Source: Pseudodesulfovibrio sp. (GTDB lineage: Bacteria; Desulfobacterota; Desulfovibrionia; Desulfovibrionales; Desulfovibrionaceae). Taken from it: a stretch of 64,000 nucleotides of DNA. The notes under the pieces are model-generated. The model did not search any database. It was given only the letters and a program-made list of their open reading frames with translations, and was not told where the DNA came from. Location of the stretch: NCBI GenBank assembly GCA_022712855.1, contig JAFLJT010000206.1, positions 1 through 64,000 of the forward strand, in the 5' to 3' direction. This document shows positions 3,141-42,508 of this stretch, piece after piece (within the stretch, counting starts at the first letter, position 1; each line of letters starts with the position of its first letter). Made by a program: the position numbers and the translations under genes.

Positions 3141-4418
3141 TTAGTTACCTGGCTCCACAAAATACGTGATCTGCGATCTCGGAGAAAGATACTTCAAGAT
3201 TTCCTCGGGCAGATGGGCCAACCGGATGGACTTCTCAACACGCAAATCCGGTTCGTCTGCCAGATCAACAATGAGCGCTTCCTTCTTGGGCACCTCGGCA
3301 TCATACAACACCACGCTGGGGTTGAGCTGGTTCTTCGGGTTCACCGACATAACCATGCCGATTGATCCGTTGCTGAGTTCCACCACCGTGCCGGGTGGGT
3401 ATACGCCAAGGCAGCGAATAAAGAGCGCCAGCAGTTCAACGTCAAAGAGCTGCTTCTGTTGTCCGAACATGTAGGAAAGCGCGAGGTACGGGGTGAGCGT
3501 CTCGTCAGCGGTCCCGTCGTTGCAATGATTGTCATAGGTGTCTGCAATGGCGACGATACGGGCAAGCTTGTTGATGTCGTCACCCTTGAGACCACCGGGG
3601 CCACCAGAGCCATCCATCCGTTCGTGGTGTTGTGCCACAACCACGACGGCAGCCTTGGGAAATTGTTCCATCTGGACCAGCATGGCCGCGCCGAATGCAC
3701 TGTGTTGTTTGAGGAGATCCTGCTCTGGCTTGGTCAGCGTGCCACGCTTCTTGAGCAGCTTCTTGGGAATACGTTCTTTGCCAATGTCGTGGAAGAGCGC
3801 GCCCATACCAAGGGCCGTCATTTCAGCAGGGGACAACCCGGCTTGTTTGCCGACCATCATGGAAAGCACGGCCACGTTCATGGGATGTGAATAGGTGGAC
3901 TCAGCAGAATCCATGACATTCATCAGATGCAGTGTGGACTCGTGGTCGTCGAGGAAATTTGCAGAAAGTCTGTCTACAAATCCGATGGCGTCTTCAATGG
4001 ATTGGAAATTACCGCCGAGCATTCCTTTAAGGATTGTATTGAACGCCTTGATGCAGGAGTTGAATTTCTTCTCGCACTGGGCAATGCGCTCCTTCTTCTC
4101 TTTGAGGCGCTTGGTGCGTTCCTTCTTGACCTCCCACAGATGGTCAATAACCGCTTGGGAGAGCTTCTTGTCCTCATCACGCTCAGGCTTTCGTTGGTCA
4201 GCGGGGCGCAAGGGGAGCACGTCACTCTTTTCGGGGATGCAGAACACGTCGGTTATGCCAAGATTTCTCAAGAGAGAGACGTGTTCTTCATCTTTGACCT
4301 TGAACTTGTTGAACAGAAATGGATGGTCAAACCAATTGGTTTTTTCCAAACGTATGAAGACACCAGCCCGGAGCTGGTTCACGGAGATCTTATATTCCGG
4401 CATGCTGATTTTTACCAT
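3141..4418 (-). CDS. HD-GYP-like phosphohydrolase protein with N-terminal DUF3391-like region
   Basis: HD motif GALFHDIGKERIP; downstream HHERMDGSGGPGGLKG. Confidence 0.85.
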   Translation of the reverse strand: MVKISMPEYKISVNQLRAGVFIRLEKTNWFDHPFLFNKFKVKDEEHVSLLRNLGITDVFCIPEKSDVLPLRPADQRKPERDEDKKLSQAVIDHLWEVKKERTKRLKEKKERIAQCEKKFNSCIKAFNTILKGMLGGNFQSIEDAIGFVDRLSANFLDDHESTLHLMNVMDSAESTYSHPMNVAVLSMMVGKQAGLSPAEMTALGMGALFHDIGKERIPKKLLKKRGTLTKPEQDLLKQHSAFGAAMLVQMEQFPKAAVVVVAQHHERMDGSGGPGGLKGDDINKLARIVAIADTYDNHCNDGTADETLTPYLALSYMFGQQKQLFDVELLALFIRCLGVYPPGTVVELSNGSIGMVMSVNPKNQLNPSVVLYDAEVPKKEALIVDLADEPDLRVEKSIRLAHLPEEILKYLSPRSQITYFVEPGN

Positions 4419-4802
4419 AAGTCCCCCTTTTTACCGTATCGGTCGTAAACACACAACACCTTAGACTCTGCATATTCCGATGCAGGAGTAGGCCTAACTA
4501 AGTACAATGCTTACTGGTTGACCTATTTGAATGTGTGGGGAGTTTTGTTCGGTGCATTTCTATGCTCTATAGCGATGGTTTTAGCTTCATATACAGGAAA
4601 ATGTACTGTGTGCTTGTCAAAGTGATAAATTTAAATTATAATAGAAAATTTTGTTCAAAAAAATAAGTAGTTACGTAAAATGGGCGAAAAACTCGTCTGT
4701 TTTGCCATTGCCAAGAAGGTCCAAATGTTTTAACCCATCAGTTCGGATAGTATTGCACAGCCTTTCATATTGGAAATACTCGTTTTTTTTGGGGACGACT
4801 CT

Positions 4803-5291
4803 ATGTACAAGAAGAGATCTGGTTTTAGTACAACTCTCATGACCAGCGCGATAGTGATCTTTTTTGTCGCTATGGCAGGAGTGGTTGTTGTCAAGACTGG
4901 CGTATTGCAGTCCAACACCGCCAGTAGTGATGGTCTGTCAGGTCTCGTATCTGTCAAAGGTACAGTCGATGTTGATGCGTTGAACCTTTCCCGCAGTGAA
5001 GTGAAGAAGATCAACCGGGCTGTGAATGCGCATAAAGACGTGTTCACTCAGGTGGACCTGTTTCTGGATACCAAAAATGGACGCGGAGAAATATCCGGCA
5101 AGACCGTGCTTGTCATGGCCATGGTCCTTGAGACCAGTGGTGATTGCGAAGTCCGGTCATGGAGTCGCAAAATTGCGCGTGATGATCTGGTGCCGCAGAT
5201 TGTCCGATATATGAAACGGGCAGCAGGTGAGTATCAGGAGTTCAAAAAGCATCCTGACGTGAAACAGAATTTCAAGTGCATATATATCTAA
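4803..5291 (+). CDS. Hypothetical single-TM protein, tandem paralogue 1
   Basis: MYKKRSGFSTTLMTSAIVIFFVAMAGVVV...; resembles the ORF at 5463-5966. Confidence 0.7.
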   Translation: MYKKRSGFSTTLMTSAIVIFFVAMAGVVVVKTGVLQSNTASSDGLSGLVSVKGTVDVDALNLSRSEVKKINRAVNAHKDVFTQVDLFLDTKNGRGEISGKTVLVMAMVLETSGDCEVRSWSRKIARDDLVPQIVRYMKRAAGEYQEFKKHPDVKQNFKCIYI

Positions 5292-5311
5292 GCATTTGTT
5301 CAATATATAGG

Positions 5312-5346
5312 AAAAGCCCCGACCGAAAGGTTGGGGCTTTTTTTTA
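5312..5346 (+). terminator. Rho-independent terminator
   Basis: aaaagccccgaccgaaaggttggggcttttttttt. Confidence 0.85.
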
Positions 5347-5462
5347 AGAGTACTCGACTTTAATGCGTTGCGTGTTGCAGTAACCTTTAAAGAGCTATAT
5401 ACTTAATATACTCTGTCCGAGAGAAAAACGTAGAGACGGCGGCAATTGAGTAAGGGTAGATT

Positions 5463-5966
5463 ATGTCTAATAGACTCTCAAATATGCAGGTTTTCAAGGG
5501 TATCGGCTTTGTCGTACTCTTCATTGCGCTCTCCTGGATTGCTGTTTTCAAGTCCGGTTTTATCGATGTCAGCAAGTTTAAGAGCAAGCCGACATACGAT
5601 AAGGCTTTGGTGGATTCTGTCGCCATCATGGGTTCGATAAAGGCCAAGGATTTGAACCTGTCCGGCAGCGAAATCAAGAAGATGAATCTCGCTGCCTTGC
5701 GCAACCGAGAAAAGTTTTCCAAGGTCAATATTCACTTGAACCGTGACGAAAGATACGGTTCAATGGAAATTAAGGATGATACTATCCTGAACATGGTTGT
5801 TGAGCTGGAAGTTGCAAAAGATTGCACCATTCAATCATGGGATTCCAAGTTTCCTCGCGCCGAACTCGCGCCGCAGATGACTGAATATATCAAGAAGGCT
5901 GCCAAAGAGTATCTTCATTACCAAAAGTCATTGGACAAGAAGGCGAAGTTTAAGTTGATCCTTTAG
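5463..5966 (+). CDS. Hypothetical single-TM protein, tandem paralogue 2
   Basis: Shares DLNLSxSExKKxN and C-x-xxSWxxKxxRxxLxPQxxxYxKxAAxEY with the preceding ORF. Confidence 0.7.
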   Translation: MSNRLSNMQVFKGIGFVVLFIALSWIAVFKSGFIDVSKFKSKPTYDKALVDSVAIMGSIKAKDLNLSGSEIKKMNLAALRNREKFSKVNIHLNRDERYGSMEIKDDTILNMVVELEVAKDCTIQSWDSKFPRAELAPQMTEYIKKAAKEYLHYQKSLDKKAKFKLIL

Positions 5967-5967
5967 G

Positions 5968-6071
5968 GAAGCACTGCATATTTGCCCGCTGGCGTCGTTG
6001 CTTCAAAAAGTTAAAACACTAGCGTACAGGAAGTACGCGTCGGCCTTGAACTTTTTTTGCGTCGTGTCGTT
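5968..6071. repeat. Intergenic palindromic element
   Basis: Inverted arms gcttcaaaaagttaa / ttgaactttttttgc around cgtacaggaagtacg. Confidence 0.45.
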
Positions 6072-6463
6072 TAATCTTTTTCCATGTCTTCCAGCAGAAT
6101 TTCCAGCGCGTGGACCGATATGCGAATCTCCATGAACGAGATGCCCAGCGAGATGATGAGAAAGAGAAGGCTGGCGCCAAATAGCACTTGGCCGACGCCC
6201 ATCCAATTTTGAAAAATAGAGATCATGGCGAAGATGCAGCTGAGCATGGACAGGACGCCGAACCCTTGCATTTTCCGGATCATGTGAATTCGGATGCGCA
6301 GGTTCTCGATCTGTTTGCGGATGGAATCATCCTTGCCCTTGCGATACTCGTCATGCAGGGCACGGATACGGTTGCTCATGGCCAGAAACCGATTGGTAAA
6401 GGCAAGCATAAACAGCGAAATGGCCGGAAAAAGCAATGCTGGTGTAGTGGCGGAAATTTCCAT
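6071..6463 (-). CDS. DUF2721-like membrane protein
   Basis: TTPALLFPAISLFMLAFTNRFLAMSNRIRALHDEY... with TM segments. Confidence 0.7.
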   Translation of the reverse strand: MEISATTPALLFPAISLFMLAFTNRFLAMSNRIRALHDEYRKGKDDSIRKQIENLRIRIHMIRKMQGFGVLSMLSCIFAMISIFQNWMGVGQVLFGASLLFLIISLGISFMEIRISVHALEILLEDMEKD

Positions 6464-6601: not shown

Positions 6602-8440
6602 CTACAGGTAGATCAAGCCCATTAATAAGACGGTGACGACTGACGCAATGCACAACAGAGGGAAACCCACCTTGATAAAATCTATGGGGGCGTATCCTCC
6701 GGCTTCCATGGTCAGCAGGTTCGTCGGCGATGATATCGGCGAAACAAAGGCGCAAGCAATGGCGATGGCGGCCGTCATGGCAAAGGCATGCGGCGATACG
6801 CCCAATTCGACGGCGACCTCTATCGCAATGGGTAAGACCAGCACGGCTGTGGCCGTACTCGGCAGAAACCAGCCGATGGATGCTGTCAAAAAGAAAAGCA
6901 CACCCAGCATGTTGAGCGGTGAGAGTTGTCCAAGCAGATCGACCCATTGTCCCGCTATGAAATCGGAAGCCCCAGTTTTGGTCAGGGCCGTAGCCACAGG
7001 GAGCATTCCGGCAACCAGAACCACTGTCGGCCAGCTGATTTTTCGATAAATCGTAATGATGTCCACACATCGTGTCATTACGAGGGCCAGAGCCGCCATG
7101 AGCGCTATGGTCACGGTCGGCAGCACATCCAGGGCCATGAACGTCACCATGGCTGTGAGGATCGAGAGTGCCCATGGGGCGCGTCTTCGGGCGGGGAAAA
7201 CCTCGCAGCTTTCTTCCGGGAGAGTGAGGACCACAAAATGAACGCGTTCCTGCTTGAGTTGTTGGATATCATCCCAACCGCCACAGACCAGAAGGGCGTC
7301 GCCGTGATGTAATTTGGTCTTGGCAATATCTCCGGTTGAAACCGTGCCTCGTTGTCGCACACCCAACACTGTCACTTTATAAAGATTTCTGAATCCAATC
7401 TCTTCAAGTGTCTGGCCGACATACCGTGAATCCGGCGCGATGAGGATCTCGGCTAAGCCGATTTCCTGTAAAAATGCTTTTCTGTTTCGAGTCGATAAGG
7501 GAGGCAGGGATTTTAAATTTTGCGATTCGCCAAAATGCTCTCGCTTCTCGGACTTACCGGCGATGATAAGAATATCGCCTTCTCCAAAAATGGTTTCCGG
7601 GGTGATTTTTGAAATCAGTCGTCCTTTGGGCAGCTTCTTGTCGATGCCGACCAAAAGCACTCCGTGGCCTCTGCGAAAACGGGCCTGAGGAAGTGTGCGT
7701 CCGATTAATGGGGAATCGCTCATCACCTGATAGCGGCCCACTTCATCTTTCAGGCCGTAGCTTGCGATAAGGTCGATTATTGTACGCCGGGGGCCTGTCT
7801 CGCAGACTTCGAACCGTTTTCCCAGCAATCCACGTCCAAAGATCAACATGTACAGGATGGCGATAGCCAGAACCCCGAGGCCGATTGGCGTGAAGCTGAA
7901 AAAGTCCAAATTATCGAATCCAGCCTGAATGAGAGTCTGGCTGGCTATGAGGTTCTGATTGGATGCAACAAGCGTCATCATGCCGCTCGTTAAAGCAGCA
8001 ATGCCCAGGGGCATCAGTATTCTTTTTTTATTGAGATTAGCCTTTTGGGACACAGCTATGGCGATAGGTATGAAGATACCCATTGTGGCAGTGGAGTTCA
8101 TGAAAGAGCCAACGGCTCCGGCCGCCAGCATCAGCAAGGCTATGAGTTTGACCTCGCTTTCTCCCCCGATACGCATGACGAGTGCGCCTATCCGCTGGGC
8201 AACTCCGGTATTCGTGAGCGCTTCACTCACAACAAACATGATGATGAGGATGATGAGCACCGGATTAGAGAAGCCGGACAACGCTTCCTGGGTCGTGAGA
8301 ACCCCGGAAAGCATCATGGCGGTAACGACAAGAACGCCGATGATGTCGCTCCGAATGCGATTGCTAATAAAAAGGACCGCAGCCCCGGCGAAAATAACCA
8401 AGGCAGTCAATGCGTCAGGGGCGATTACGTTTTGCATCAT
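6602..8440 (-). CDS. SLC13/DASS-family permease with internal TrkA-C (RCK_C) domains
   Basis: Multi-TM; internal VMSDSPLIGRTLPQARFRRGHGVLLVGI and ILIAPDSRYVGQTLEEIGFRNLYKVTVLGVRQ. Confidence 0.85.
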   Translation of the reverse strand: MMQNVIAPDALTALVIFAGAAVLFISNRIRSDIIGVLVVTAMMLSGVLTTQEALSGFSNPVLIILIIMFVVSEALTNTGVAQRIGALVMRIGGESEVKLIALLMLAAGAVGSFMNSTATMGIFIPIAIAVSQKANLNKKRILMPLGIAALTSGMMTLVASNQNLIASQTLIQAGFDNLDFFSFTPIGLGVLAIAILYMLIFGRGLLGKRFEVCETGPRRTIIDLIASYGLKDEVGRYQVMSDSPLIGRTLPQARFRRGHGVLLVGIDKKLPKGRLISKITPETIFGEGDILIIAGKSEKREHFGESQNLKSLPPLSTRNRKAFLQEIGLAEILIAPDSRYVGQTLEEIGFRNLYKVTVLGVRQRGTVSTGDIAKTKLHHGDALLVCGGWDDIQQLKQERVHFVVLTLPEESCEVFPARRRAPWALSILTAMVTFMALDVLPTVTIALMAALALVMTRCVDIITIYRKISWPTVVLVAGMLPVATALTKTGASDFIAGQWVDLLGQLSPLNMLGVLFFLTASIGWFLPSTATAVLVLPIAIEVAVELGVSPHAFAMTAAIAIACAFVSPISSPTNLLTMEAGGYAPIDFIKVGFPLLCIASVVTVLLMGLIYL

Positions 8441-8777
8441 TTGCGTAGACCGTGGAATCCCCGCAATGTCAAGAAAGCAATGGGGGCAGGTCGTAGGGTG
8501 CGTAATAAATTTGGGAATTGGCGGATGGTAAGAGGTTTTTCATCTACCTTTTTACAGAGTGAGTTGAACAGATGTGAGTTTTCTGAAATATTGGGCTTCC
8601 GTCTGACTATATCACCAGTCTCAAGATGGAAAAGCGTGGGCCGAAGAGGAGAGAAAAGTGAGCAAACCGATTAATATTAAGTCGTTGGGTAGTATGGTGT
8701 TTCCGAAATGCGATTGCGGAATTCATTAATTAGATTTTACATTGAGTAATGAACACAGCCTAGAGGCTACTAAAAAT

Positions 8778-9350
8778 CTATCGTCTTTCCATCTGATAGT
8801 GTTCATAGATTGCTTTCCAATTCATATATTTCCAAATCAATTCAAATTGGGACAAGTCTAAGAATCGGGGAGAAATTTCTTTTGCATAACCCTTTAAGCC
8901 ATTATGCACCTCGGCAAATATCTCATCGCTAGTTGCCGATGTTAGAATATTTATACCAGATATTAGAATTTCACTGTCTTTGACTATGAACTTTTCCTTT
9001 TTAAAGCGGAGAGAATATCTTTCCTTGCTCATTTTATATAATGTTGCTCTTACTTGTGTATTCCAAAATCGTAAACGTAGAAAACCAATTATTTGATTGA
9101 ATTCCCAAGGATTGTACTGGCTTTTCTCTTCAAGTTCTCTTCTTTTTTTCTTTTCAGGGAATTCACTCCATTCAGCCTTCCGATAAGTATTATTTTCTAA
9201 CCTTTTAAGGTCATTACTGACCTTCGTCTCTACATCAGAGTCATGCTTTTCTAACGAAGTTCTGTATATTGGAAGGTCCAATAAATCCATAGTAGCCCGC
9301 CTTCTTTCAAAGTATTCATGGTCTCGTGGGGTTAAACTCCTCAAGCTCAA
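8778..9350 (-). CDS. Hypothetical protein in AT-rich stretch
   Basis: 190-aa ORF, no recognised family. Confidence 0.5.
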   Translation of the reverse strand: MSLRSLTPRDHEYFERRRATMDLLDLPIYRTSLEKHDSDVETKVSNDLKRLENNTYRKAEWSEFPEKKKRRELEEKSQYNPWEFNQIIGFLRLRFWNTQVRATLYKMSKERYSLRFKKEKFIVKDSEILISGINILTSATSDEIFAEVHNGLKGYAKEISPRFLDLSQFELIWKYMNWKAIYEHYQMERR

Positions 9351-9473
9351 CCATTGATAGTAACAAGTTGAGACAAAAAAGTCTTAACTTTTAGTGTGGG
9401 TGTAAAGGCCACTTGCCTTGCGTTTTGTTTTAATTCTATATTGTTTTTTTCATAATTTATAAAGGAGAAGGTA

Positions 9474-9719
9474 ATGTCAGATAAAGAATGTCGTCGATGT
9501 GGAAATGAGTCCTTAGCTGATTATAATTGTGCTGAGTGTGGAGAAAATGCTGCTTTTGATAGTGATGAAAGCCATAGTATTGATACAACAGGATTTTTAT
9601 ACGAAATAGATGCAGATGGTGATTCTTCGCAACAGATTTGTTCGTGTGGCAACGAGGTCTTCGAAGTTATCTATCATGAGTACTGTAGCTGGTGTCAGCA
9701 TCAAGTCGATAAGGGGTAA
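9474..9719 (+). CDS. Small zinc-ribbon-like hypothetical protein
   Basis: CRRCGNE...CAECGE...CSCGNE...CSWCQ; SD aaaggagaagg upstream. Confidence 0.6.
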   Translation: MSDKECRRCGNESLADYNCAECGENAAFDSDESHSIDTTGFLYEIDADGDSSQQICSCGNEVFEVIYHEYCSWCQHQVDKG

Positions 9720-9803
9720 GGCTGTAATTTCGGAGAATTAGGGGCCACCTCCCTAATTCTGCGTAACAAAGCACATTATGACTCTGAATAAACGGAGGTT
9801 CTG

Positions 9804-10325
9804 ATGAAAATGAAAGGGCAAAGTGTCTTGATGTTTGTGGATAATGTTTTCGAGGATATGGAGCTTTTATATCCGTACTATCGCCTGATCGAGGAAGGCG
9901 CGGAAGTTGTGGTGGCCGGGCCTGAGGCTGGTGCCGTCTATACGGGTAAAAACGGGTATCCTTTTCGGTCTACTGCTGCCATTGCGGATCAACAGGCTAC
10001 GGATTTCGATCTTCTTGTCGTAGCTGGTGGTTTTGCTCCAGATAAACTGAGGCGCGATCCCAAAGTGCTGGAACTCACCCGCGAGATACACGAAGCCGGA
10101 AAAATCGTTGCCCATATTTGCCACGGCGGCTGGATTCCGATCTCCGCCGGAATCATGCAAGGCTTTGCCTGCACTTCAACGCCCGGAATCAAGGATGACC
10201 TCGTCAACGCAGGGGCCACATGGACTGACGAAGAAGTCGTCGTGGACCGAAATCAGGTCTCCTCCCGCAAACCGGACGACCTGCCAGCTTTCTGTCGGGC
10301 CATTGTGAACTTGGCAACGAAATAA
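9804..10325 (+). CDS. DJ-1/PfpI family protein (type 1 glutamine amidotransferase-like)
   Basis: AHICHGGWIPISAGI nucleophile-elbow Cys region; DLLVVAGGFAPDKLRRD. Confidence 0.92.
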   Translation: MKMKGQSVLMFVDNVFEDMELLYPYYRLIEEGAEVVVAGPEAGAVYTGKNGYPFRSTAAIADQQATDFDLLVVAGGFAPDKLRRDPKVLELTREIHEAGKIVAHICHGGWIPISAGIMQGFACTSTPGIKDDLVNAGATWTDEEVVVDRNQVSSRKPDDLPAFCRAIVNLATK

Positions 10326-10378: not shown

Positions 10379-10423
10379 GAATTAGCCAGATTGGCCCAAT
10401 AATAATCAGCTGATAGTTACTGT

Positions 10424-10464
10424 AAAACAGCCCGCGTCGGAGAATCCGGCGCGGGCTGTTTTGT
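10424..10464. terminator. Orphan bidirectional terminator next to Tn7-like left end
   Basis: aaaacagcccgcgtcggagaatccggcgcgggctgttttgt; A- and T-tracts on both sides, no adjacent gene needing it. Confidence 0.7.
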
Positions 10465-10484
10465 TATCAAATGAGGTCTGGCGA

Positions 10485-10510
10485 TGTGGGCGAGTAATAA
10501 AGTTCTTAAG
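10485..10510 (+). repeat. Tn7-like left terminal inverted repeat
   Basis: TGTGGGCGAGTAATAAAGTTCTTAAG. Confidence 0.75.
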
Positions 10511-25513: not shown

Positions 25514-27373
25514 CTATTGTTTATTTCCATTTTTCAGCAACGAACTACCAATGTGGCGATAGAAGGCGGATTCGAGAATCAGGGCATTGGTGTCCAGCGT
25601 CAGGGCCGTATTCAATCCGCCGTTGTCATATTTTCCAGCTTGGAATCCTTTCTTCTTTTCTGAGAGCGGCATGAACAGCTCGACGAGCTTGCGCGTGTAT
25701 GCAGTGTTGTAGAGTGCGTCCCACGCAAATACGATTTCGGTTGAGGCCCAGAAAAGGTCTAACTGTTGAGTCGTGTATGGGCTTAGACACTGCCAATCTT
25801 TTTTCCCTCCGTCAGCAATGATGGCGCTTGTCGCAAACCATGGTGCTCGATCGATTCGCCCGTCTCCCGGGGCCGTGGGGATTTTCGTTCGTTCAAACCG
25901 TTTTGCCTGAACCTCGTATATGGCGCGGGCAAGGCGTTCTTCATCATCACCGGTGCGCCCGAATTCAATGAGTGAGAGAACAAATGGCTTTGAAGAAAGG
26001 GATGCTCCAGGACGGGTGTCGTATGGTACGGTTACGCCCATGATTTTTTTCTCTTTGAGGTGGGGGCGGTAGTCTCTGCTTGCCCATGCGTTGAGCCCCC
26101 AAAGACCAAGAGCACGGGCACCATAAGGGCCATATCCGAAGTAGCCTTCAATGGTGATGTTTTCCTTACCCGCCCAGAGGTTGGCTCCGGACAAGTGACC
26201 ATCCTGTACAAGGCGCTCGGTTCGGAATCTCTTGAAAACGGCTTGTGTTGCCGCCTTCAGGCCGGGATGCCTTGTCTCAATGATTTTGAGCCAGAGTAAT
26301 AACCGGGATACATCGATGGCAGACCATCCGAGACCAATGGATGAGGGTGCTTGATCTTCCCCAACCATTCGTGCCGTGTCGGTGAAGTAGAGCTTGTTTG
26401 GGAGTTCATTGTTGTAGAGGTCCATGCTTGCCAGCGTTTGCAGGAGTAGCCGTGTCCTCCGGGAAAAGTCGTCTTTGGTGATGATGGAGAGGCCTTCGGC
26501 ACTGACCAGTGCCGCCAGGGAAGACCCGACTTCCCACATTGTGGTGACAGGATATAAATCCAACCCGTTGAACATACCTGTAGATGGCTGATGGTTACGT
26601 TGGAAATAAGACCAAGCAATGTTGGCGACTCCTCGGAAACTGCCAGGCATCCTTTGTGCGGCAACCTGACTTGCTTTAGCTTGAGATGGCCCGGCCCTGT
26701 CCATTGGGACTACTGGCGGTCGGCCATAGGTATTTCTTGGAGTCGCTACGGATGGACTGGGTAGCGTTCCGGCCAGCCCTCCTTCCGAATATGGAATGAC
26801 TGTGAATCGTTCATCTTTCTTCTCAACGGAATTCCATATTTGGGCCGTAGAGTCGTTCCGCCTGAGTCCCGCTGCTGGTCGCGTATAGTTGGAGAGACCA
26901 AACAGATTCCAGGCGGTTTGTATTCTCCCAACTTCCGGCGGCAGGTTTACTCCAGAGGATATTTCTCCGACTCCGGCAGCGACAGGGGTGGACGCGCCCA
27001 GACTGGCCAGCTTCAGCTTTTGTCCCAACGACTTCTTCACAGCAGACCAGGTGGTTCCGGCTCGTGCGAACTTGGCTGTGGCCATTCCCCATAATTCGTA
27101 AGCTCGGGCATTGCCGCCTTCTTCTGCTGCTTTTGAGGCCATGACATACACGACGCCACGCATTGTCGTGGACAGTTCGCGCATATTCTCCGCTATGTCC
27201 TCGAGGATTATGGATGCCGGGTTATAGTCCTTGCCTTTGTAAAAGGCGACAGCCTCGGCGAATCGTTTGTTCGTTGCCAGAATTACAAGGTCTCTGGTTT
27301 CGGCAGCTAACACAGGAACCGAGAAAGCCAAGACGGTGATTATTAATAAGGAGAGTACGTGTTTGTAGACCAT
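25514..27373 (-). CDS. DUF3131 protein with N-terminal extension (copy 1)
   Basis: AWSYFQRNHQPSTGMFNGLDLYPVTTMWEVGSSLAALVSAEGL. Confidence 0.85.
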   Translation of the reverse strand: MVYKHVLSLLIITVLAFSVPVLAAETRDLVILATNKRFAEAVAFYKGKDYNPASIILEDIAENMRELSTTMRGVVYVMASKAAEEGGNARAYELWGMATAKFARAGTTWSAVKKSLGQKLKLASLGASTPVAAGVGEISSGVNLPPEVGRIQTAWNLFGLSNYTRPAAGLRRNDSTAQIWNSVEKKDERFTVIPYSEGGLAGTLPSPSVATPRNTYGRPPVVPMDRAGPSQAKASQVAAQRMPGSFRGVANIAWSYFQRNHQPSTGMFNGLDLYPVTTMWEVGSSLAALVSAEGLSIITKDDFSRRTRLLLQTLASMDLYNNELPNKLYFTDTARMVGEDQAPSSIGLGWSAIDVSRLLLWLKIIETRHPGLKAATQAVFKRFRTERLVQDGHLSGANLWAGKENITIEGYFGYGPYGARALGLWGLNAWASRDYRPHLKEKKIMGVTVPYDTRPGASLSSKPFVLSLIEFGRTGDDEERLARAIYEVQAKRFERTKIPTAPGDGRIDRAPWFATSAIIADGGKKDWQCLSPYTTQQLDLFWASTEIVFAWDALYNTAYTRKLVELFMPLSEKKKGFQAGKYDNGGLNTALTLDTNALILESAFYRHIGSSLLKNGNKQ

Positions 27374-27376
27374 AGG

Positions 27377-28789
27377 CTAATCCTCCCTCTCTCTTTGAGG
27401 TAGACAGCGGGGATAGTCGCTCATGGGAAGCTGTTTTCGCACATAGAAGTCAATATAGCTCGGCTCGTTTCGCAGGCGAACCAGTTGTCCTTTGAGATTG
27501 TGCAGAATTGCTTCGAGAACCATGGCATTCGTCTCCAACACGATGACCTTGTTGATGCGCCAGTTCTTCTCGTAGCGTCCTTCATACCAACCGCGCCCCT
27601 CTTCGTAGAAGCAGCATGAGGCGGCTGCGAGCAGGAAACGGCTGTATGGGGTGTCCCAGAGAGACCACATGCCGAAGATCGCGCGGGTCGAAAGAACGGA
27701 GAGGTCATAACGTAGTTGACCTGACCGGGATATTGTGGGCCAGAGACGGCCTTCGGCGGTGATCGTTCCGATGATTGCATAAGGAGGTCGGTCGATGCCG
27801 TTTTCGCTTCGGGCAGTCATTATGCCTTCTCGTCGATACCTCTCTTCTTGAACCTCGTAGATGTTCTTGGCGATTTCTTTGCGGTCAAGGGCATCGTCCC
27901 CTTTGGCGTGTTGTTCCGGGAGCGAGTCGTCGCTCCAGTCGAACTCCATTCCTTCAAGCAGGAAAGGCGTGCTTGTCAGATATATTGGGGCCCCTGTCTC
28001 TATTGACGTACGTGGGTCGTAAGGAATCTGTTTGCCGTAGATATCGATGTATCTGAGCGGGGAAGTGACCGAGGACTTCACTGGTAATCCCCAGAGACGG
28101 TAACCACGCGCTGCGTATGCCTCCCATCCCAAACGGCCTTCAACTCGAAGTGCGGTCTGTCCGTCTGATTTCAGTCCGCTTTGCAGTTGCCCGTCTTTGC
28201 CGAGGGCCATACAGAAATTCCACCTGAGTACGGCGCGGTCAACGCCTTCGGCAAAGAGCGGATATTCTTCCTTGAGCGCTTTAAGCCAGATAAGCAGACG
28301 GCCTATATCGAGTCCTGAGAAACCTGCAGAACCGGGTTGCATGTCGAAGCCGACCATACGCCCGGTTGAGGTGTTGTAGATGAGGTTGGGGAGTTCCCCG
28401 GCATAGAGTTCCATGGAGTTGAGCCATTCCACCAGCTTGCCGACCCGCTGACAGAAAACTTTTTCATCGACGATTTCCATCTGGTGGGCAGCCATCAGCG
28501 CTGACAGATAGGCAGCAACTTCGCCGATGGAAGTGTATGGGTAATTCTCGGCAGCGTTAACCAAGCCAGTGTTCGGGTGATAGTTGTTTTCGAAATATGC
28601 CCATGCAGTTTCTGAAAAGAGCCGTCCTTCTTCTGTGAGATCATTGCAGGCCACCAATTGAGGCGCGTCTCCAGGACGTGGTTGTTGCGCTCCACAGTCG
28701 ATTCCCCGGTACAGGGCTCCGCAGCCTCCGGCTGTCAGCAGCAGGAGGCAGAGGGAAGGAAGTATGAATATATATGTCAGTCGCGTCAT
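27377..28789 (-). CDS. DUF3131 lipoprotein (copy 2)
   Basis: Lipobox LLTAGGCG; AWAYFENNYHPNTGLVNAAENYPYTSIGEVAAYLSAL. Confidence 0.85.
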   Translation of the reverse strand: MTRLTYIFILPSLCLLLLTAGGCGALYRGIDCGAQQPRPGDAPQLVACNDLTEEGRLFSETAWAYFENNYHPNTGLVNAAENYPYTSIGEVAAYLSALMAAHQMEIVDEKVFCQRVGKLVEWLNSMELYAGELPNLIYNTSTGRMVGFDMQPGSAGFSGLDIGRLLIWLKALKEEYPLFAEGVDRAVLRWNFCMALGKDGQLQSGLKSDGQTALRVEGRLGWEAYAARGYRLWGLPVKSSVTSPLRYIDIYGKQIPYDPRTSIETGAPIYLTSTPFLLEGMEFDWSDDSLPEQHAKGDDALDRKEIAKNIYEVQEERYRREGIMTARSENGIDRPPYAIIGTITAEGRLWPTISRSGQLRYDLSVLSTRAIFGMWSLWDTPYSRFLLAAASCCFYEEGRGWYEGRYEKNWRINKVIVLETNAMVLEAILHNLKGQLVRLRNEPSYIDFYVRKQLPMSDYPRCLPQRERED

Positions 28790-28799
28790 GCGGGCTCCA

Positions 28800-30209
28800 T
28801 CAGGGGTCGAACTTGTGGATGGTTATGGACGGTTGGTATTTCCAAGGCGGCAAAGCCTTACGTGGCAGAGTGTTTTTTTTGAAGAATTTATCCCAATGAC
28901 TCTCCAGCCCGCTGTATACAAGGAGTTTTCCCGTGGTCTTGTAGAGCAGAATTTCTAAAATTACGCCGTTGCCATTGAGCGTGATGGCTTTGTTCAGGAG
29001 GCCCGTTTCTTCGAATCTCCCAACGTAAAATCCTTTCCCAGGTTCGTAGAGAGCGGTAACAGCCTCGGCTAACAGGTCCGTGTAGTCGGACTTGAACAGA
29101 ACCCATAATCCCATGGCGGCTTTGGTGTTCAGGCAGGCTAGTTCGGGCATGGGTTTCCCTTCATGACTGAGCGTCGCCCAAGGGGTGCCGTAGCCCAGGA
29201 TGGTGCCGTAGACGAAGTAGGGTGGTTTATCCACAGCATCTTCGGTTCGGGCGGTGAGAATGCCGGTGTTCAGGAATCTCGCTTCTTGTGCTTTGTAGAT
29301 TTGCCACGCAAATCTTGCTTGAATGGGGTCACTGTGTATTTTCAGATTGGTGTTGGTGTCTCCCGGCAGGTCCCAATTGTGTTCAATACCATCGAGTACG
29401 TAGCTTTCAGAAACCACGAAGTTGGGGGCGTGAAGGTTTTCGGGGTCCCTTGCGTCAAAAGGAACCTGGAAACCATAGACTGTGATAGTTGAATACGGTT
29501 CGGCGACCGATGCGGCGTCGGTGTTGGCTCCCCAAAGGGCGAATCCCCGCGCTGCATATTCCTCGTAACCCAACCGGCCTTCGGCGTAGTGGATCAAGTT
29601 GTTTTCATCCCGTTGGTAATAGCTCGCTCCGAACATTGTGCCATCGCGGTCAAGAAGTTTGGACCAGTTCCACCGCATGACGCCTTTGTCTACTAATTCA
29701 CTGTATGCCGGATAGCGTTCTTTGAGAATTTTCAGCCATGTCAGCAATCTTCCGAGATCAAGCGCTGACCATCCGAGTTCGCCTGGTTCATTGGCCCAGT
29801 CTACCATCCGTCCATTGTCGGCACTGTAAAACTGGTTTGGAAGGTCGCCTCGGAATAGTTCCATTGAAATGAACCAACGCAGGATCTTCCGAATGCGTGA
29901 GTCGAATTCCCTCTCATCGATCAGATTCAGCTGATGAGCGGAAATGATGGCCGCGATGTGGGCCGATAGATCCCACATGGTGAAGGGCGCGTAATTGGGT
30001 TGAGCCCCGGAAAGTCCCGTCTCCTGATTGACGTTGTTCTGGAAATAGTTCCAGGCGATTTCTGCCCACTGTCTTTCATTGGCGGTGAGCGGCCCTTGTC
30101 TCGGAATCTGCTTTTCGGCAGGTCTGATTGGGGCACATAGAGCCGGAGAGCCTGTTCCCAAGATTGCTGCGATCAATAGGATTGCGAGGAATATACGGGG
30201 GATGCTCAT
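28800..30209 (-). CDS. DUF3131 protein (copy 3)
   Basis: AWNYFQNNVNQETGLSGAQPNYAPFTMWDLSAHIAAIISAHQ. Confidence 0.85.
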   Translation of the reverse strand: MSIPRIFLAILLIAAILGTGSPALCAPIRPAEKQIPRQGPLTANERQWAEIAWNYFQNNVNQETGLSGAQPNYAPFTMWDLSAHIAAIISAHQLNLIDEREFDSRIRKILRWFISMELFRGDLPNQFYSADNGRMVDWANEPGELGWSALDLGRLLTWLKILKERYPAYSELVDKGVMRWNWSKLLDRDGTMFGASYYQRDENNLIHYAEGRLGYEEYAARGFALWGANTDAASVAEPYSTITVYGFQVPFDARDPENLHAPNFVVSESYVLDGIEHNWDLPGDTNTNLKIHSDPIQARFAWQIYKAQEARFLNTGILTARTEDAVDKPPYFVYGTILGYGTPWATLSHEGKPMPELACLNTKAAMGLWVLFKSDYTDLLAEAVTALYEPGKGFYVGRFEETGLLNKAITLNGNGVILEILLYKTTGKLLVYSGLESHWDKFFKKNTLPRKALPPWKYQPSITIHKFDP

Positions 30210-31648
30210 GGGGTTGGCCTCGTTTTTTCATTTTCCAGCAACGGTTGGAATTCTCTCTGATATCTGGACGGAGGGAGTCCTTGTTGCTCGAAATTCTTGC
30301 TCTCCAGTAGTTTTTCCCAATAACCATGAGTGTCGGGCTGGCTGTACAATACCCCGGTAGCCTTAAATGCCAGCGCCTCCAGAATGATGGCGTTGCAGTC
30401 CAGTGTGATGGCACGGTTGGTTGAGCCATCTTTCTCGTATATCCCGGCGAACCATCCGCCGTATTCATCGTACTTGGGAGCCAGGGCGTTAATGAGGGCG
30501 TCTGTATACGGGCTGTCGTAAAGTGCCCACATTGCATAGGCTGCCTTGGTGGATATGGCTGCAGCATCAGGAACGGGATTTCCTCTGCTATCGAGTGAGA
30601 CAAAGGGAACTCCTTGGGCATACAGCGAGTCTATTAAGTAGTAAGGAGAGCGGTCCATAATGTGTGGATCACGGGCTGTCAGTCGTCCCTGTTGTGAATA
30701 ACGAGCTTCCTGCACGAGATAGATGGCATCGGCCAGCTCTCTCATGGGAGTAGAGGAAGTGGTCTGGTTTTCAGTGTGAGGAACGACAAAGCCGAATTCA
30801 AGTCCCGCCAGCATTCCCATGCCAGTCGTTACGGCTCCAATCTGCGGTGGGTCTCCGGTCGGGCGGTTGTCGAAAGGCAACCAGTGGCCGAGAATGGTGA
30901 TGGCTGACCTATGATTCATTTTCAACGACTCATGGCCATTAAATCCCCACAGCTTAAATCCTATTGCAGCGTATTGTTGCAGGCCGAGGCGTCCTTGGCG
31001 GAAAAGTGTCACTTTGCCGTCGGAAGCGGCGGTAGCACCGTGGAGTAATCCATCGCTGTCCAACACATGCCGGAAATTGAACCGTAGGACTATTTTATCG
31101 ACGGTCGTGGAATGCGTGATGAATTCATTTCGAACAATACGAAGCCATATGAGTAGCCGGCCTATATCTATGGCGGAGAAACCAGCTTGGCCTGGCTGCC
31201 CATCGTTTTGAATCAATCCACCTGTTCGAGCGTTGTAAAACTTGTTTGGCAAACCATAATCGTTGAGTTCCATTGTGTTCAGCCAATAGATGACCGCTGT
31301 CATTCGACGATCGAAAGTTATCTCATCCAGCACACCGATTCGTTTGGCAGAAACCAAGGCGGCAAGGTAGCTGCCGATGTCCCACATGGTCACAGTGTCG
31401 CTCCCGACAGCACCTTGCGGTATTCCTGTTTCCGGAAAGATGGTTCGGTCGAAGTATGCCCATGCTCTGCTGGCCGTCTGTATCTCGGATTCCAAGAGCT
31501 GACCTTGTCTGATGGGAATGTCTACAGTGGACGAAACAGGAGCAAACATCATCGCCTGATTCTGCTCGTGATAGTGGCATGCACTAAGAAGCGCGGCGAT
31601 GAGCAGCCAGGAGACTATGCTTGATCGTATGAAAGAGGAGAGTCTCAT
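30206..31648 (-). CDS. DUF3131 lipoprotein (copy 4)
   Basis: Lipobox ALLSACH; AWAYFDRTIFPETGIPQGAVGSDTVTMWDIGSYLAALVSAKR. Confidence 0.85.
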   Translation of the reverse strand: MRLSSFIRSSIVSWLLIAALLSACHYHEQNQAMMFAPVSSTVDIPIRQGQLLESEIQTASRAWAYFDRTIFPETGIPQGAVGSDTVTMWDIGSYLAALVSAKRIGVLDEITFDRRMTAVIYWLNTMELNDYGLPNKFYNARTGGLIQNDGQPGQAGFSAIDIGRLLIWLRIVRNEFITHSTTVDKIVLRFNFRHVLDSDGLLHGATAASDGKVTLFRQGRLGLQQYAAIGFKLWGFNGHESLKMNHRSAITILGHWLPFDNRPTGDPPQIGAVTTGMGMLAGLEFGFVVPHTENQTTSSTPMRELADAIYLVQEARYSQQGRLTARDPHIMDRSPYYLIDSLYAQGVPFVSLDSRGNPVPDAAAISTKAAYAMWALYDSPYTDALINALAPKYDEYGGWFAGIYEKDGSTNRAITLDCNAIILEALAFKATGVLYSQPDTHGYWEKLLESKNFEQQGLPPSRYQREFQPLLENEKTRPTP

Positions 31649-31652
31649 AACA

Positions 31653-32708
31653 TTACCCTCCCCAATCCTTTTGGTTGGGGCCCCAGGGAGACCTCGTCCG
31701 ACTTGGCTTTTTTTTCTTTTTTTTGGATTCTCCGGTTATGAAGTCGGTTATCGCTTCGACATCAAGGTTGTAACCTATGAAAATACTGCCGTCAGAGAAG
31801 TCGCCGCCCTTTTCTGGACTCCATGGGAAAGAGTTTGGGGCATAGCTGCTGTACGCAACGATGAACCCTCCAGGGGACCAGTCGTAATAGCCGAATCCGT
31901 ATATGAAGTCCGGGTCGCTAATGGAATGCTTCGATGAATCCGGATAGATATTCGCTTGACCCCAAAAACTGAATTTATCCCAGATTGGTACCGACAATCC
32001 CAGGCCAAACCATTGCTTCCACCATTTGCCTGATTCGTATTCCGGTGACAGGTTATGGGATGCCCAACCCAGAATGCTGGCATCTTCGGAAGGATGGAGA
32101 AATTTGGTTACCGACTCTGGCATTTCGTATCGGTACGTAGTGGTGATGGTGCCAGCATTGATGTCTGTGAATTCCTCTCCCGCTTTCGGGTTGAGACGGT
32201 TGCCTGAATAATTGGCGTATTCCAGACTCAAGGTGTCTGGTGCGTAACTGGCAACTCCGAAACTATAGCTGAAATCTGGCTCATACGCCTGTTGGTATGA
32301 AGGTTCCATGTATTGATAGAATGTGAACCTGGCATAATATGGCGATATCCCATTGAAAGAGAGTGTTTCGGTAAAGGCCTGTTTGTGGATTTTTTTCTGG
32401 CGAGAGCCATTCCTGTGCTCCTGCCACGATGGTGCTATTGAAGTGGTGTAGCCCACGTTGACGGAAATCTCTCGAGCGATGGCGTCGCCAAGAGATGAAG
32501 CCGGTTCTTCATGGCGGCTGGTGTCGATGGTAAACGAGCGGGAAAGCATGTTTGCTAAACTCCATGACGGCTCGTCTTCAATTGCGGTGCTCAGTCCGGG
32601 CTGGGGGATGCTTTTGATGTAAGGATCATCAGCTTCCGCAAGGCATGACGACCACCACAACATGCTCAATAAGAATATTGGTATTGCTATCTTTATCGTC
32701 ATTGACAC
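31653..32708 (-). CDS. Secreted, outer-membrane-like hypothetical protein
   Basis: Signal peptide; alternating aromatic pattern (YARFTFYQYMEPSYQQAYEPDFSYSFGVASYAPDTLSLEYANYSG) suggestive of beta strands. Confidence 0.55.
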   Translation of the reverse strand: MSMTIKIAIPIFLLSMLWWSSCLAEADDPYIKSIPQPGLSTAIEDEPSWSLANMLSRSFTIDTSRHEEPASSLGDAIAREISVNVGYTTSIAPSWQEHRNGSRQKKIHKQAFTETLSFNGISPYYARFTFYQYMEPSYQQAYEPDFSYSFGVASYAPDTLSLEYANYSGNRLNPKAGEEFTDINAGTITTTYRYEMPESVTKFLHPSEDASILGWASHNLSPEYESGKWWKQWFGLGLSVPIWDKFSFWGQANIYPDSSKHSISDPDFIYGFGYYDWSPGGFIVAYSSYAPNSFPWSPEKGGDFSDGSIFIGYNLDVEAITDFITGESKKKKKKPSRTRSPWGPNQKDWGG

Positions 32709-32714
32709 GGCTCT

Positions 32715-34052
32715 TTACTTTCGGCCCTGAATCTTCAGATACGGTCCAAAGACCTTGAAGTGCAGGGTTTCGAGGATGACGCCGTTGGTGTTGCAGGTAA
32801 TGGCCTTGTTGATGCGGCCATCACTTTCGTAAGTCCCTGCGTAGAATCCATCATCCTCCGTTTGCAGCGTGCGTGCTTTTTCCAAAAGAATAGGGCTATA
32901 ATCTGTAGCGTAGAGGTAGGCCCATCCATAAGCACCCTTGGTGCTTATGGTTCTCCAGTCCTCCGAGCGAAGTCCGTCGCTTGTCAGACTTGCCCAGGGG
33001 ATGCCGTCGCCAAACACCGTGTTGTAGACAAAATAAGGGTCTTCATCGAGGGCGGTTTCCGTTACGGCCGTGACAATCCCAGTTCGTTCAAATCGTTTTT
33101 TTTGCGCCAGATAGACACGATAGGAAAACTCTCGAGAGTAATGATCCCACCCGAATTCCAAGCCGTCGAGAATATATGGCTCACTCAGGGTGTATGTGTG
33201 AGCGCCGAACCGGCTCGGCGATCGAAGATCGACCGGGACTTCGACTCCTTCCACGTCGACAAATCCGGTATAGTCCAGATAATTATAAGCTTGGCTAATG
33301 TCGAAGCCGAGAAGGGCGAATGATTTGGAGACGTATTCTTCGTATCCGAGTCGTCCTTCCTGATGGACCTCCTCGCGGCCAGCACTCCGACTTGTGCCGT
33401 ACATGACCCCGTCGCGGAACATGCGTTCAAACTTCCAGCGGGAGACTATCGCACGAACCTTGGGTGTGAACTCGCCGTATTCGTAAAGGAGAACATTGAG
33501 TGGCACGCACAGTCTGCCGATATCGATTGCACTCCAGCCGATGCCTTTTTCGGTTGACTGGTTCTGGTAGTCGGTCATCGAAAGAGTTTGTGTGTTGTAT
33601 GTCTTGTTCGGTAGCTCGTCATTGTACAGGGGGATTCGAATGAGGGAATCCAAAGCGTTATCAATGCGTCGCTTGAATTCTTCCTCGGCTATGATGTCGA
33701 GTCGGTATGCTGCGATGGTTGCGAGCAGATAGCTCGAAGTATCCCAGAGAGTCGTGAAGCTGAATCCTTTGACCGAATCTGCCAGCCCTGTCTGAGTGTT
33801 GGTGTTGTTTTCGAAATAGTTCCAGGCCTTCTGGGCTATCAGGTGTTCGGCTTCGGTGAGAGGACCATGTTGTGCAGGGGGGATGTCGTCTGTCATCTCC
33901 ATTTGGATCACGGTGTCGGTTGCGATTTCAATTGTGTCCACCCCGAGGTGACTGAGATCTGTCAGCATGAAGATGATGATTCCCGTGGTCAGAAGACCGA
34001 GGATGATCGCGATCTGGCTTCGCGCTTGGAGCATGGCTTCTTTGAACTGCAT
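32715..34052 (-). CDS. DUF3131 protein (copy 5)
   Basis: AWNYFENNTNTQTGLADSVKGFSFTTLWDTSSYLLATIAAYR; N-terminal TM. Confidence 0.85.
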   Translation of the reverse strand: MQFKEAMLQARSQIAIILGLLTTGIIIFMLTDLSHLGVDTIEIATDTVIQMEMTDDIPPAQHGPLTEAEHLIAQKAWNYFENNTNTQTGLADSVKGFSFTTLWDTSSYLLATIAAYRLDIIAEEEFKRRIDNALDSLIRIPLYNDELPNKTYNTQTLSMTDYQNQSTEKGIGWSAIDIGRLCVPLNVLLYEYGEFTPKVRAIVSRWKFERMFRDGVMYGTSRSAGREEVHQEGRLGYEEYVSKSFALLGFDISQAYNYLDYTGFVDVEGVEVPVDLRSPSRFGAHTYTLSEPYILDGLEFGWDHYSREFSYRVYLAQKKRFERTGIVTAVTETALDEDPYFVYNTVFGDGIPWASLTSDGLRSEDWRTISTKGAYGWAYLYATDYSPILLEKARTLQTEDDGFYAGTYESDGRINKAITCNTNGVILETLHFKVFGPYLKIQGRK

Positions 34053-34058
34053 AGATGA

Positions 34059-35867
34059 TTATCCCACACTCTCGTTATTGGACCACAGTGCCGCCCTGAC
34101 GATCACGATCAGGGAGTTCATGTTGAGTAATGACCAGAACCCCGCAATGATGAAGCCCAAGAGGTCATATTCGTACCCCAAGGCTATTCTGCCGAGATAC
34201 CAGAGAATTCCAAGAATGTTCAGTGCGATCATGATTATTTGTGGGATGACCAGGTTAAGGTAGGTCCGTTGCTCGCTGGTCTTGGGTGTGACCTTGAATT
34301 TAACCTCGTCTCCTTTGAGTACTGTCCATATCGCTTTGAGATTGAGTGGGAAGAAGGCCACGTAGTATTGGACATCTCGCAACGTGTTCACTCCCCAGGT
34401 TCCAATCATGAAGGTGAACTGGCTGATGATCTGGAATGAGAGAATGTGAATGAAGAAGTCGAGATCAAATCCGTTCACCGGCACGATGTTCGTGAAGAAG
34501 AAAATGGGTGGTGTGATGAGAAATATGACCATCCAGAATGCGGCGAAATAAGAGAATGTCGATGCGAAGTACATGCTCTTTTGTCCGGGTGAAAGACTTG
34601 CCTTTCCGAGGGGGTTGTCGCGACGCAACAGGTCGAGTGTTCCCCCGGCATATTTGAAACTTTGTGTCAGGTATGCCAGGGCATCCTGGGGAGACAGCAT
34701 TTTGGATACGATTTCTGGGTGATAGACTGATTTCCATTGATGGGTCTGATCCGCATGGAGCAGCAGGGAAGTGTAGATGTCCTCAGAGACATGATACTTG
34801 TAAGGAGTGATTTCCGTCTCGGCCATGAATGCCCGACGGGCACCAAATTCCAGTGCATCCCGAAGTTCTTCGGATTCCATCTCCGGCGTCACGTTGTTGA
34901 TGTGGTTTTCCATCTCCTCCCCATAACGGATCAGCGCCGCACGCTGTACAGCCTCTCGCCTGTGAAGGGAACCTGCGCCGCAGCAGAACGTGGCGTTGTG
35001 ATTCATCCGTCTTCTGAGGATGCAGTCATAAAACATTCTGGGGTCGCTTCCGAAGAGGTCCTGATTCACCTTGACGGGTCCTATCAACTTTTCGATAGCT
35101 CCTCCGAGCCGCCCACCCAATTGGCCGAACCTCTGCGAGATCCAGTCCTTGAGTCGTGTCCCCTCGATAGTGTCGTAGAACCATTGCGGGGTCTGTACCC
35201 AAGCCACGTCGGGATCTCGGAAATAGCCAAGCGTGTTCTCAAGAAAGTTCGGAAACGGGCGCGTGTCCGCATCGAGTATCACGAGGATGTCCCCTGAAGT
35301 CCTTTCCATGGCGTTTCGAAGGTTTCCGGCCTTGAAGCCCCGGTTGTCCTCGCGCGTGATGTAGCCCACGTCCTCACTTTCGGCCACGGCTCGCATTTCA
35401 TCACGCTTCCCATCGTCCAGGACATGGATTTTTACTTCAACCGGTGGCGGGCAACGCATTTGTTTTGTATCCCGGATACTATATCTGACGAGTTCTGGCT
35501 CCTCTGTGTAAGTCGGTAGAAATACATCGACCTGCAGCGGACGGTTCTCGGAGAGTTTGTCCGATGTGGCCAAGATATCATTGGCATACAACGCCGGCGG
35601 GCCGCTCGGCACGTCCTTGTGTTTCCACAGGTTGACGATGAAGAGCGTCGTACTGAGAAAAGCCATGGTTTCGGCAAGCGCCAATGGAATAGCGAACCAC
35701 AACGCCTCGGTGTTAAGGGAGTAAAACCAGCGCCAGTGGAAATACCAGATGCCTATGCCAATATTGATGGTGGCAAGATATTGGTACAGAAATTCCCTCC
35801 ATGGCGAGTAGGGGACTGCCGTGTAAGGTTTCCTGTGTTCATATTTTGAAAAATAGAACTGTTCCAT
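34059..35867 (-). CDS. Cellulose-synthase-like family 2 glycosyltransferase
   Basis: VDVFLPTYTEE, HVLDDGKRDEM, ILDADTRPFP, QTPQWFYD, VSEDIYTS; multiple TMs; no PilZ-like tail. Confidence 0.88.
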   Translation of the reverse strand: MEQFYFSKYEHRKPYTAVPYSPWREFLYQYLATINIGIGIWYFHWRWFYSLNTEALWFAIPLALAETMAFLSTTLFIVNLWKHKDVPSGPPALYANDILATSDKLSENRPLQVDVFLPTYTEEPELVRYSIRDTKQMRCPPPVEVKIHVLDDGKRDEMRAVAESEDVGYITREDNRGFKAGNLRNAMERTSGDILVILDADTRPFPNFLENTLGYFRDPDVAWVQTPQWFYDTIEGTRLKDWISQRFGQLGGRLGGAIEKLIGPVKVNQDLFGSDPRMFYDCILRRRMNHNATFCCGAGSLHRREAVQRAALIRYGEEMENHINNVTPEMESEELRDALEFGARRAFMAETEITPYKYHVSEDIYTSLLLHADQTHQWKSVYHPEIVSKMLSPQDALAYLTQSFKYAGGTLDLLRRDNPLGKASLSPGQKSMYFASTFSYFAAFWMVIFLITPPIFFFTNIVPVNGFDLDFFIHILSFQIISQFTFMIGTWGVNTLRDVQYYVAFFPLNLKAIWTVLKGDEVKFKVTPKTSEQRTYLNLVIPQIIMIALNILGILWYLGRIALGYEYDLLGFIIAGFWSLLNMNSLIVIVRAALWSNNESVG

Positions 35868-35884
35868 ACTAAACTCTGGTGTAT

Positions 35885-36205
35885 TTAGAAACTGGCAATA
35901 CCTGTCTCTTCAGAATCAAAAATCTCAAGCACCTTGTCCAGTCGGGTGAGTCTCAGCATCTCCATGATCTGGTCTGATACACAACACAACTTGACGTCGC
36001 CTTTGACGCCGACTCTGCGCAGGGCAGAAATGATTGCTCCCAGGCCGGAGCTGTCTATGAATGTCACCTCGGATAAATTCAGAAGAAGGCGAATCTTGCC
36101 AGTTGTTATTTGCTGTATAAGTTCGTCCTTGAATTCCACAGCCTGACTGGCATCCAGTCGGGATACTTTCGGCTTGAAACTGACAATATCACCAAATTCC
36201 TGCAT
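35885..36205 (-). CDS. STAS-domain anti-sigma-factor antagonist-like protein
   Basis: LLLNLSEVTFIDSSGLGAIISALRR. Confidence 0.9.
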   Translation of the reverse strand: MQEFGDIVSFKPKVSRLDASQAVEFKDELIQQITTGKIRLLLNLSEVTFIDSSGLGAIISALRRVGVKGDVKLCCVSDQIMEMLRLTRLDKVLEIFDSEETGIASF

Positions 36206-36229
36206 GATTACTTCCATGTATTTCCTCCC

Positions 36230-41974: not shown

Positions 41975-42228
41975 GTGACGGTTCGGTTTGTTTCGTATAA
42001 AATGTAGCATGATGGGCGGGCATGTAGAGAGTTATGAGAAGTAGGTCCAGTTTGTAGGTCTGTAAAGTCCCTGTATAATAGGTCTATTGCAAAGTAGAGG
42101 CTTCTGCCCCAATGAAGGTCTCTGACTGTCAGCCATGGTTTGTAGTCGCGGCCTTTACCTGCACCGCATCCTTCCTTGATCCATCGCTGAAATGTTGCTT
42201 CCGAGGGGGAGTACTTTTTCTTCGCCAT
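41941..42228 (-). pseudogene. Truncated TnsA-like Tn7-type transposase endonuclease subunit (N-terminal fragment)
   Basis: MAKKKYSPSEATFQRWIKEGCGAGKGRDYKPWLTVRDL resembles TnsA N-termini; remainder degenerate; starts 97 bp inside the right TIR, transcribed inward as in Tn7. Confidence 0.75.
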
Positions 42229-42279: not shown

Positions 42280-42325
42280 CTTAACAACTTTATTACTCAC
42301 TAAAGAACTTTATTACTCGCCTACA
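42280..42325 (-). repeat. Tn7-like right end: two tandem TnsB-type repeats (20-bp period), terminus at 42325
   Basis: Reverse complement TGTAGGCGAGTAATAAAGTTCTTTAGTGAGTAATAAAGTTGTTAAGT. Confidence 0.75.
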
Positions 42326-42330
42326 AGTGA

Positions 42331-42426
42331 TGTGGGAGAGTAATAAAGTTGTATACTGGATTTACAACAGTGATCTACCGAAGCTGAACCCAGAGAGTAA
42401 AGCTGGTGTGGGTGAGTAATAGAGTT
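42331..42426 (+). repeat. Second Tn7-like left end with two spaced TnsB-type repeats
   Basis: TGTGGGAGAGTAATAAAGTTG at 42331 and TGTGGGTGAGTAATAGAGTT at 42407. Confidence 0.7.
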
Positions 42427-42508
42427 ATTGGGGCTGTACCAGATCTTTTTGCTGAGATTTAACTGAAGAGCATTAATTTGCAAATATGCAGAGAATACTG
42501 TGAGGGAC

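Follow-up and report, generated by a model that had tools for sequence, protein, structure and literature searches.

A junction of two tandem Tn7-type elements in a Pseudodesulfovibrio draft genome

Genomic islands in which several Tn7 elements share one att site, the older ones being degenerate, have reportedly been described by Parks and Peters in 2007/2009 and by Peters et al. in 2014. In our literature search, no paper treating Tn7 together with Pseudodesulfovibrio was found. For Tn7 itself, the 3' end of glmS serves as the binding site of TnsD, and insertion takes place about 25 bp from that site (PMC2918618), and the 5-bp duplication and the right-end conventions of the element have been set out (PMC11406308).

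The window analysed here comprises 64,000 nucleotides and corresponds to positions 1-64000 of contig C186, which is 78,072 bp long. The contig comes from a draft genome that is 87.7% complete and consists of 369 contigs. The spot flagged in a preliminary description, 42280-42426, is a genuine join between two Tn7-type elements. We number the elements 1 to 3, with left ends L1 to L3 and right ends R1 to R3. The order from left to right is chromosomal neighbours, L1-R1, AGTGA, L2-R2, a copy of the glmS terminator, L3-R3 and glmS, with glmS and the window on different contigs. The features within the window are as follows.

3141-6463, minus strand: native chromosomal genes next to glmS in relatives, encoding an HD-GYP-type protein (3141-4418) and a 130-aa protein (6071-6463)
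10413-10484, no strand: glmS terminator region, copy a, on the outer flank of L1; 96% identical over 68 bp to the R2-L3 spacer
10485-10505, plus strand: L1, left end of element 1; one TnsB-type repeat, after which homology to the interior of L3 resumes
10485-42325, minus strand: element 1, about 31.8 kb, without a tns operon
42100-42228, minus strand: what is left of tnsA in element 1: the first 44 codons, with 81% identity to an intact relative
42284-42325, minus strand: R1, right end of element 1, with its tip TGTAGGCG at 42325 and two TnsB-type repeats that abut
42326-42330, no strand: AGTGA between elements 1 and 2, which is TCACT on the glmS strand
42331-42427, plus strand: L2, left end of element 2, with one repeat at 42331 and another at 42407
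42331-64000, minus strand: the part of element 2 in the window; it continues to a right end at contig position 64375

Direct reading of the junction gave AACTTTATTACTCACTAAAGAACTTTATTACTCGCCTACA ending at 42325, AGTGA, TGTGGGAGAGTAATAAAGTTG from 42331 and TGTGGGTGAGTAATAGAGTT from 42407. The right end, the 5 bp, the opposing left end and the second copy 76 bp further in, as claimed in the preliminary description, are thus all exactly placed. The tip of R1 is slightly decayed, with TGTAGG in place of TGTGGG (a transition). The ends of the array have the structure of Tn7 ends: they run TGT...ACA, and their TnsB-type repeats abut on the right, as the two of R1 do, and are spaced on the left, as are the two of L2, with L1 and R2 down to a single repeat. 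Elements 1 and 2 lie in the same orientation with 5 bp between R1 and L2, the arrangement of a tandem array, which the R2-L3 spacing of 72 bp does not fit. An 18-base end pattern, TGTNGGNRARYAATAAAG, was matched 45 times across 36 genomes of the genus, and the reversed pattern used as a control had no match, so the pattern is not due to chance. Five of the matches are in this genome, at 10485, 42325 and 42331 of the window, at C186:64448 and at C276:13289.

Concerning the att gene, which had been expected beyond 64 kb, C186:64448 marks L3, with three spaced repeats, and the end of contig C276 carries a glmS-like gene of 941 aa, followed 6 bp past its stop codon by R3 with three abutting repeats and then by the start of tnsA. 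The outer 5 bp of L3 and R3 are identical (TAGAC on the glmS strand), and most simply the two are therefore the ends of one element, element 3, with a matching target duplication (TAGAC/TAGAC) and with its middle missing from the assembly. As R3 lies 6 bp past the stop of the glmS-like gene and has the same flanking 5 bp, glmS is the attachment gene. The C186 portion of element 3 holds transketolase-, phosphoglycerate kinase-, pyruvate kinase-, aldolase-, epimerase- and GAPDH-like reading frames, named from their translations by eye. A further contig, C234, carries tnsC, tnsD (with TnsD/TniQ domains) and part of tnsE; it probably belongs to element 3, which adjoins glmS, is the youngest by array order and probably carried tnsABCDE. 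A Pfam TnsA search of the genome gave no match, and tnsA remnants were recovered with a protein query. The tns genes found are thus those on C234, the tnsA remnants and the tnsA start; neither tnsB nor a full-length tnsA was found in the draft genome, which is 87.7% complete. R1 and R3 have a right-end hairpin and the start of tnsA in common, and R2 is more diverged. Against the prototypic Tn7 proteins in PDB, TnsC from C234 matched at 6e-176, and TnsA, TnsB and TnsE of the relative G004 at 2e-84, 1e-214 and 6e-29, respectively. The 941-aa product of the glmS-type gene located at the attachment site (L009:10457-13282) scores 187 bits against an NCBI GlmS cut-off of 418, and the att codons of the gene are conserved. 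Several relatives have two copies of the glmS-type gene.

In 20 of 30 glmS loci of the genus, with the locus of this genome included, the conserved KTVTVG codons are followed 26-28 bp on by a right-end tip, where shuffles gave an expectation of 0.1. The right end is thus downstream of and proximal to glmS in these loci, as R3 is on C276; two further loci (L020 and L026) have tips that appear degenerate by eye. G032 has a single 21-kb element with intact tnsABCDE and ACGGC on both flanks. As had been proposed, the join connects two Tn7 elements of the same orientation. Junctions of the same type are present in relatives. Right and left ends are separated by exactly 5 bp in G001, G030, G004, G014 and G023, and by 4 bp in G028 and G003. 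The junction 5 bp equal those next to glmS in G023 (CCGTT) and G014 (TCTTC), and differ from them in G001 and G004. Comparable junctions were also found in Methylobacter oryzae, with spacers of 4 and 5 bp, and in Thalassomonas sp. RHCl1, with a spacer of 5 bp. In G004 (L056:5796-6734), an insertion with a reading frame that by eye is transposase-like interrupts tnsD. In G028 (L060:9300-11850), two neighbouring left ends, at 1783970 and 1784905, precede almost identical stretches of cargo that share a coding tail, which resembles the duplication of a module together with its left end. G028 was considered as a second case of duplicated flanks and rejected, as the repeat following its left ends is cargo and not the glmS terminator.

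These relatives bear on two other explanations of the junction. The two tips make an inverted repeat around the 5 bp, as would a bidirectional terminator or a small repeat element, but the same ends flank the single element of G032 with matching duplications at glmS, R3 and L3 likewise contradict such a structure, and the ends adjoin tnsA genes or remnants and recur at glmS in most relatives. We find it hardly credible that the repeats are anything other than transposon ends. An assembly artefact might be feared in a genome with this many contigs and this degree of completeness, in which contigs break within tns regions. However, the same junction type is found in the complete or nearly complete genomes G001, G030, G004 and G023, and an artefact is highly improbable.

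On the far side of the array, the proteins at 6071-6463 and 3141-4418 have matches among the genes that follow glmS in relatives, where their order and direction are the same. In G010, the site is empty and these native neighbours are about 0.2 kb from glmS. The array therefore sits between glmS and its native neighbours. Between the terminator copy and these neighbours (6602-10325) are a transporter, a small protein and a DJ-1/PfpI gene, a close homolog of which is located elsewhere in five relatives. Element 1 itself carries two-component/HDOD regulators and a DUF3131/glycosyltransferase cluster; five DUF3131 proteins are clustered with glycosyltransferases at 25514-36217. Repeats of L1 have been lost through an apparent repeat-to-repeat deletion.

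The claim that a second element starts at 42331 and bears the metal genes was borne out. Its cargo comprises a cytochrome b-type protein, a YHS/heavy-metal P-type ATPase, a MerA-type reductase, MerC, MerR and two-component regulators. The MerA-type reductase was found in no other of the 36 genomes at E 1e-100 and the metal P-type ATPase has one close relative (77%, in G022), so the metal island is accessory, as had been supposed. Of what was predicted beyond 64 kb, the right end is there: R2, at C186:64375, lies 375 bp past the window, reads TGTGGCGAGTAATAAAG with its tip short of one base, and, like L1, is reduced to one repeat. The att gene is present as well, on the other contig, but instead of tns genes R2 holds only a decayed tnsA fragment inside, and element 2 is without a tns operon. 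Nor does AGTGA recur beside R2, where the outer 5 bp are ACTAT as against TCACT at L2 (glmS strand). As for element 2 being younger than element 1, the array order fits but decay lends no clear support.

The 72-bp spacer between R2 and L3 contains a terminator hairpin and adjoined glmS until the insertion of element 3. Elements 1 and 2 are flanked by two alleles of the glmS terminator on the same chromosome, and because one copy lies between R2 and L3, element 2 is now off the standard position. The target duplications of both elements are mismatched (TCGCC/TCACT for element 1, TCACT/ACTAT for element 2). As both are decayed copies, this bears on their history and not on their family. Decay, glmS allele exchange or non-standard insertion could each account for the terminator copy and the mismatches. 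Movement of the two elements as one composite via R2 and L1 was considered and rejected, since the outer ACTAT and TCGCC differ.

Taken together, it is very likely that 42280-42426 is the junction of two Tn7 elements inserted successively at one attachment site downstream of glmS. The anatomy of the array and its duplications display the outcome; from known Tn7 behaviour, we infer that TnsD directed these insertions. By this analogy, TnsD would recognise the end of the glmS coding sequence, and an element would be joined at a set distance downstream, leading with its right end and duplicating 5 bp of the target. Because insertion leaves the recognised sequence intact, a diverged element that target immunity does not stop could insert again between glmS and the resident; as the conserved 3' end of glmS survives each insertion, every newcomer would be oriented alike and would enter between glmS and the element already there. 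Elements 1 and 2 are cargo-bearing fossils whose tns genes have been lost. Alternatively, R1 and L2 may have been joined by recombination or deletion within a longer array, or by glmS allele exchange between strains, and not by direct insertion. The mismatched duplications of elements 1 and 2, the two terminator alleles on one chromosome and the deletion in L1 agree with this. On the other hand, R1 and L2 are exactly 5 bp apart, as are the corresponding ends in five relatives, a spacing that recombination would not favour, and decay can explain the mismatch of element 1, as TCGCC and TCACT differ by two transitions and the tip of R1 also has a transition. We consider such an origin possible but unlikely, and favour successive insertion. 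Similarly, we suggest only tentatively that arrays also grow by glmS allele exchange or by insertion past the terminator, which would leave a terminator copy inside and reset the attachment site.

The locus provides a base-level record of a large accessory region (a DUF3131/glycosyltransferase cluster, mercury/heavy-metal genes and sugar-phosphate genes) built through stacking of Tn7 beside glmS, a site occupied in most of the sampled members of the genus. Such arrays preserve the order of acquisition, and bear on the extent to which Tn7 target immunity fails between diverged elements.

Compared with prototypic Tn7 at attTn7, the system is alike in the tnsABCDE order (in relatives), the homology of TnsA, TnsB, TnsC and TnsE, the TGT...ACA ends, the close right and spaced left repeats, the right end facing glmS, the 5-bp duplication and the insertion distance of about 25 bp past the TnsD site. 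It differs in its end repeat, which is GAGTAATAAAGTT-like, in its target, a 941-aa GlmS-like protein below the NCBI GlmS cut-off, and in its cargo. CAST systems share TnsABC and TniQ but differ from this one, in which TnsE and a long TnsD are present, the middle of element 3 being missing from the assembly. Multi-element Tn7 islands likewise have several elements per site with the older ones degenerate, whereas here a terminator copy lies between elements 2 and 3. The array is a well-preserved new case of a known type of genomic island, one formed by tandem Tn7 elements at attTn7.
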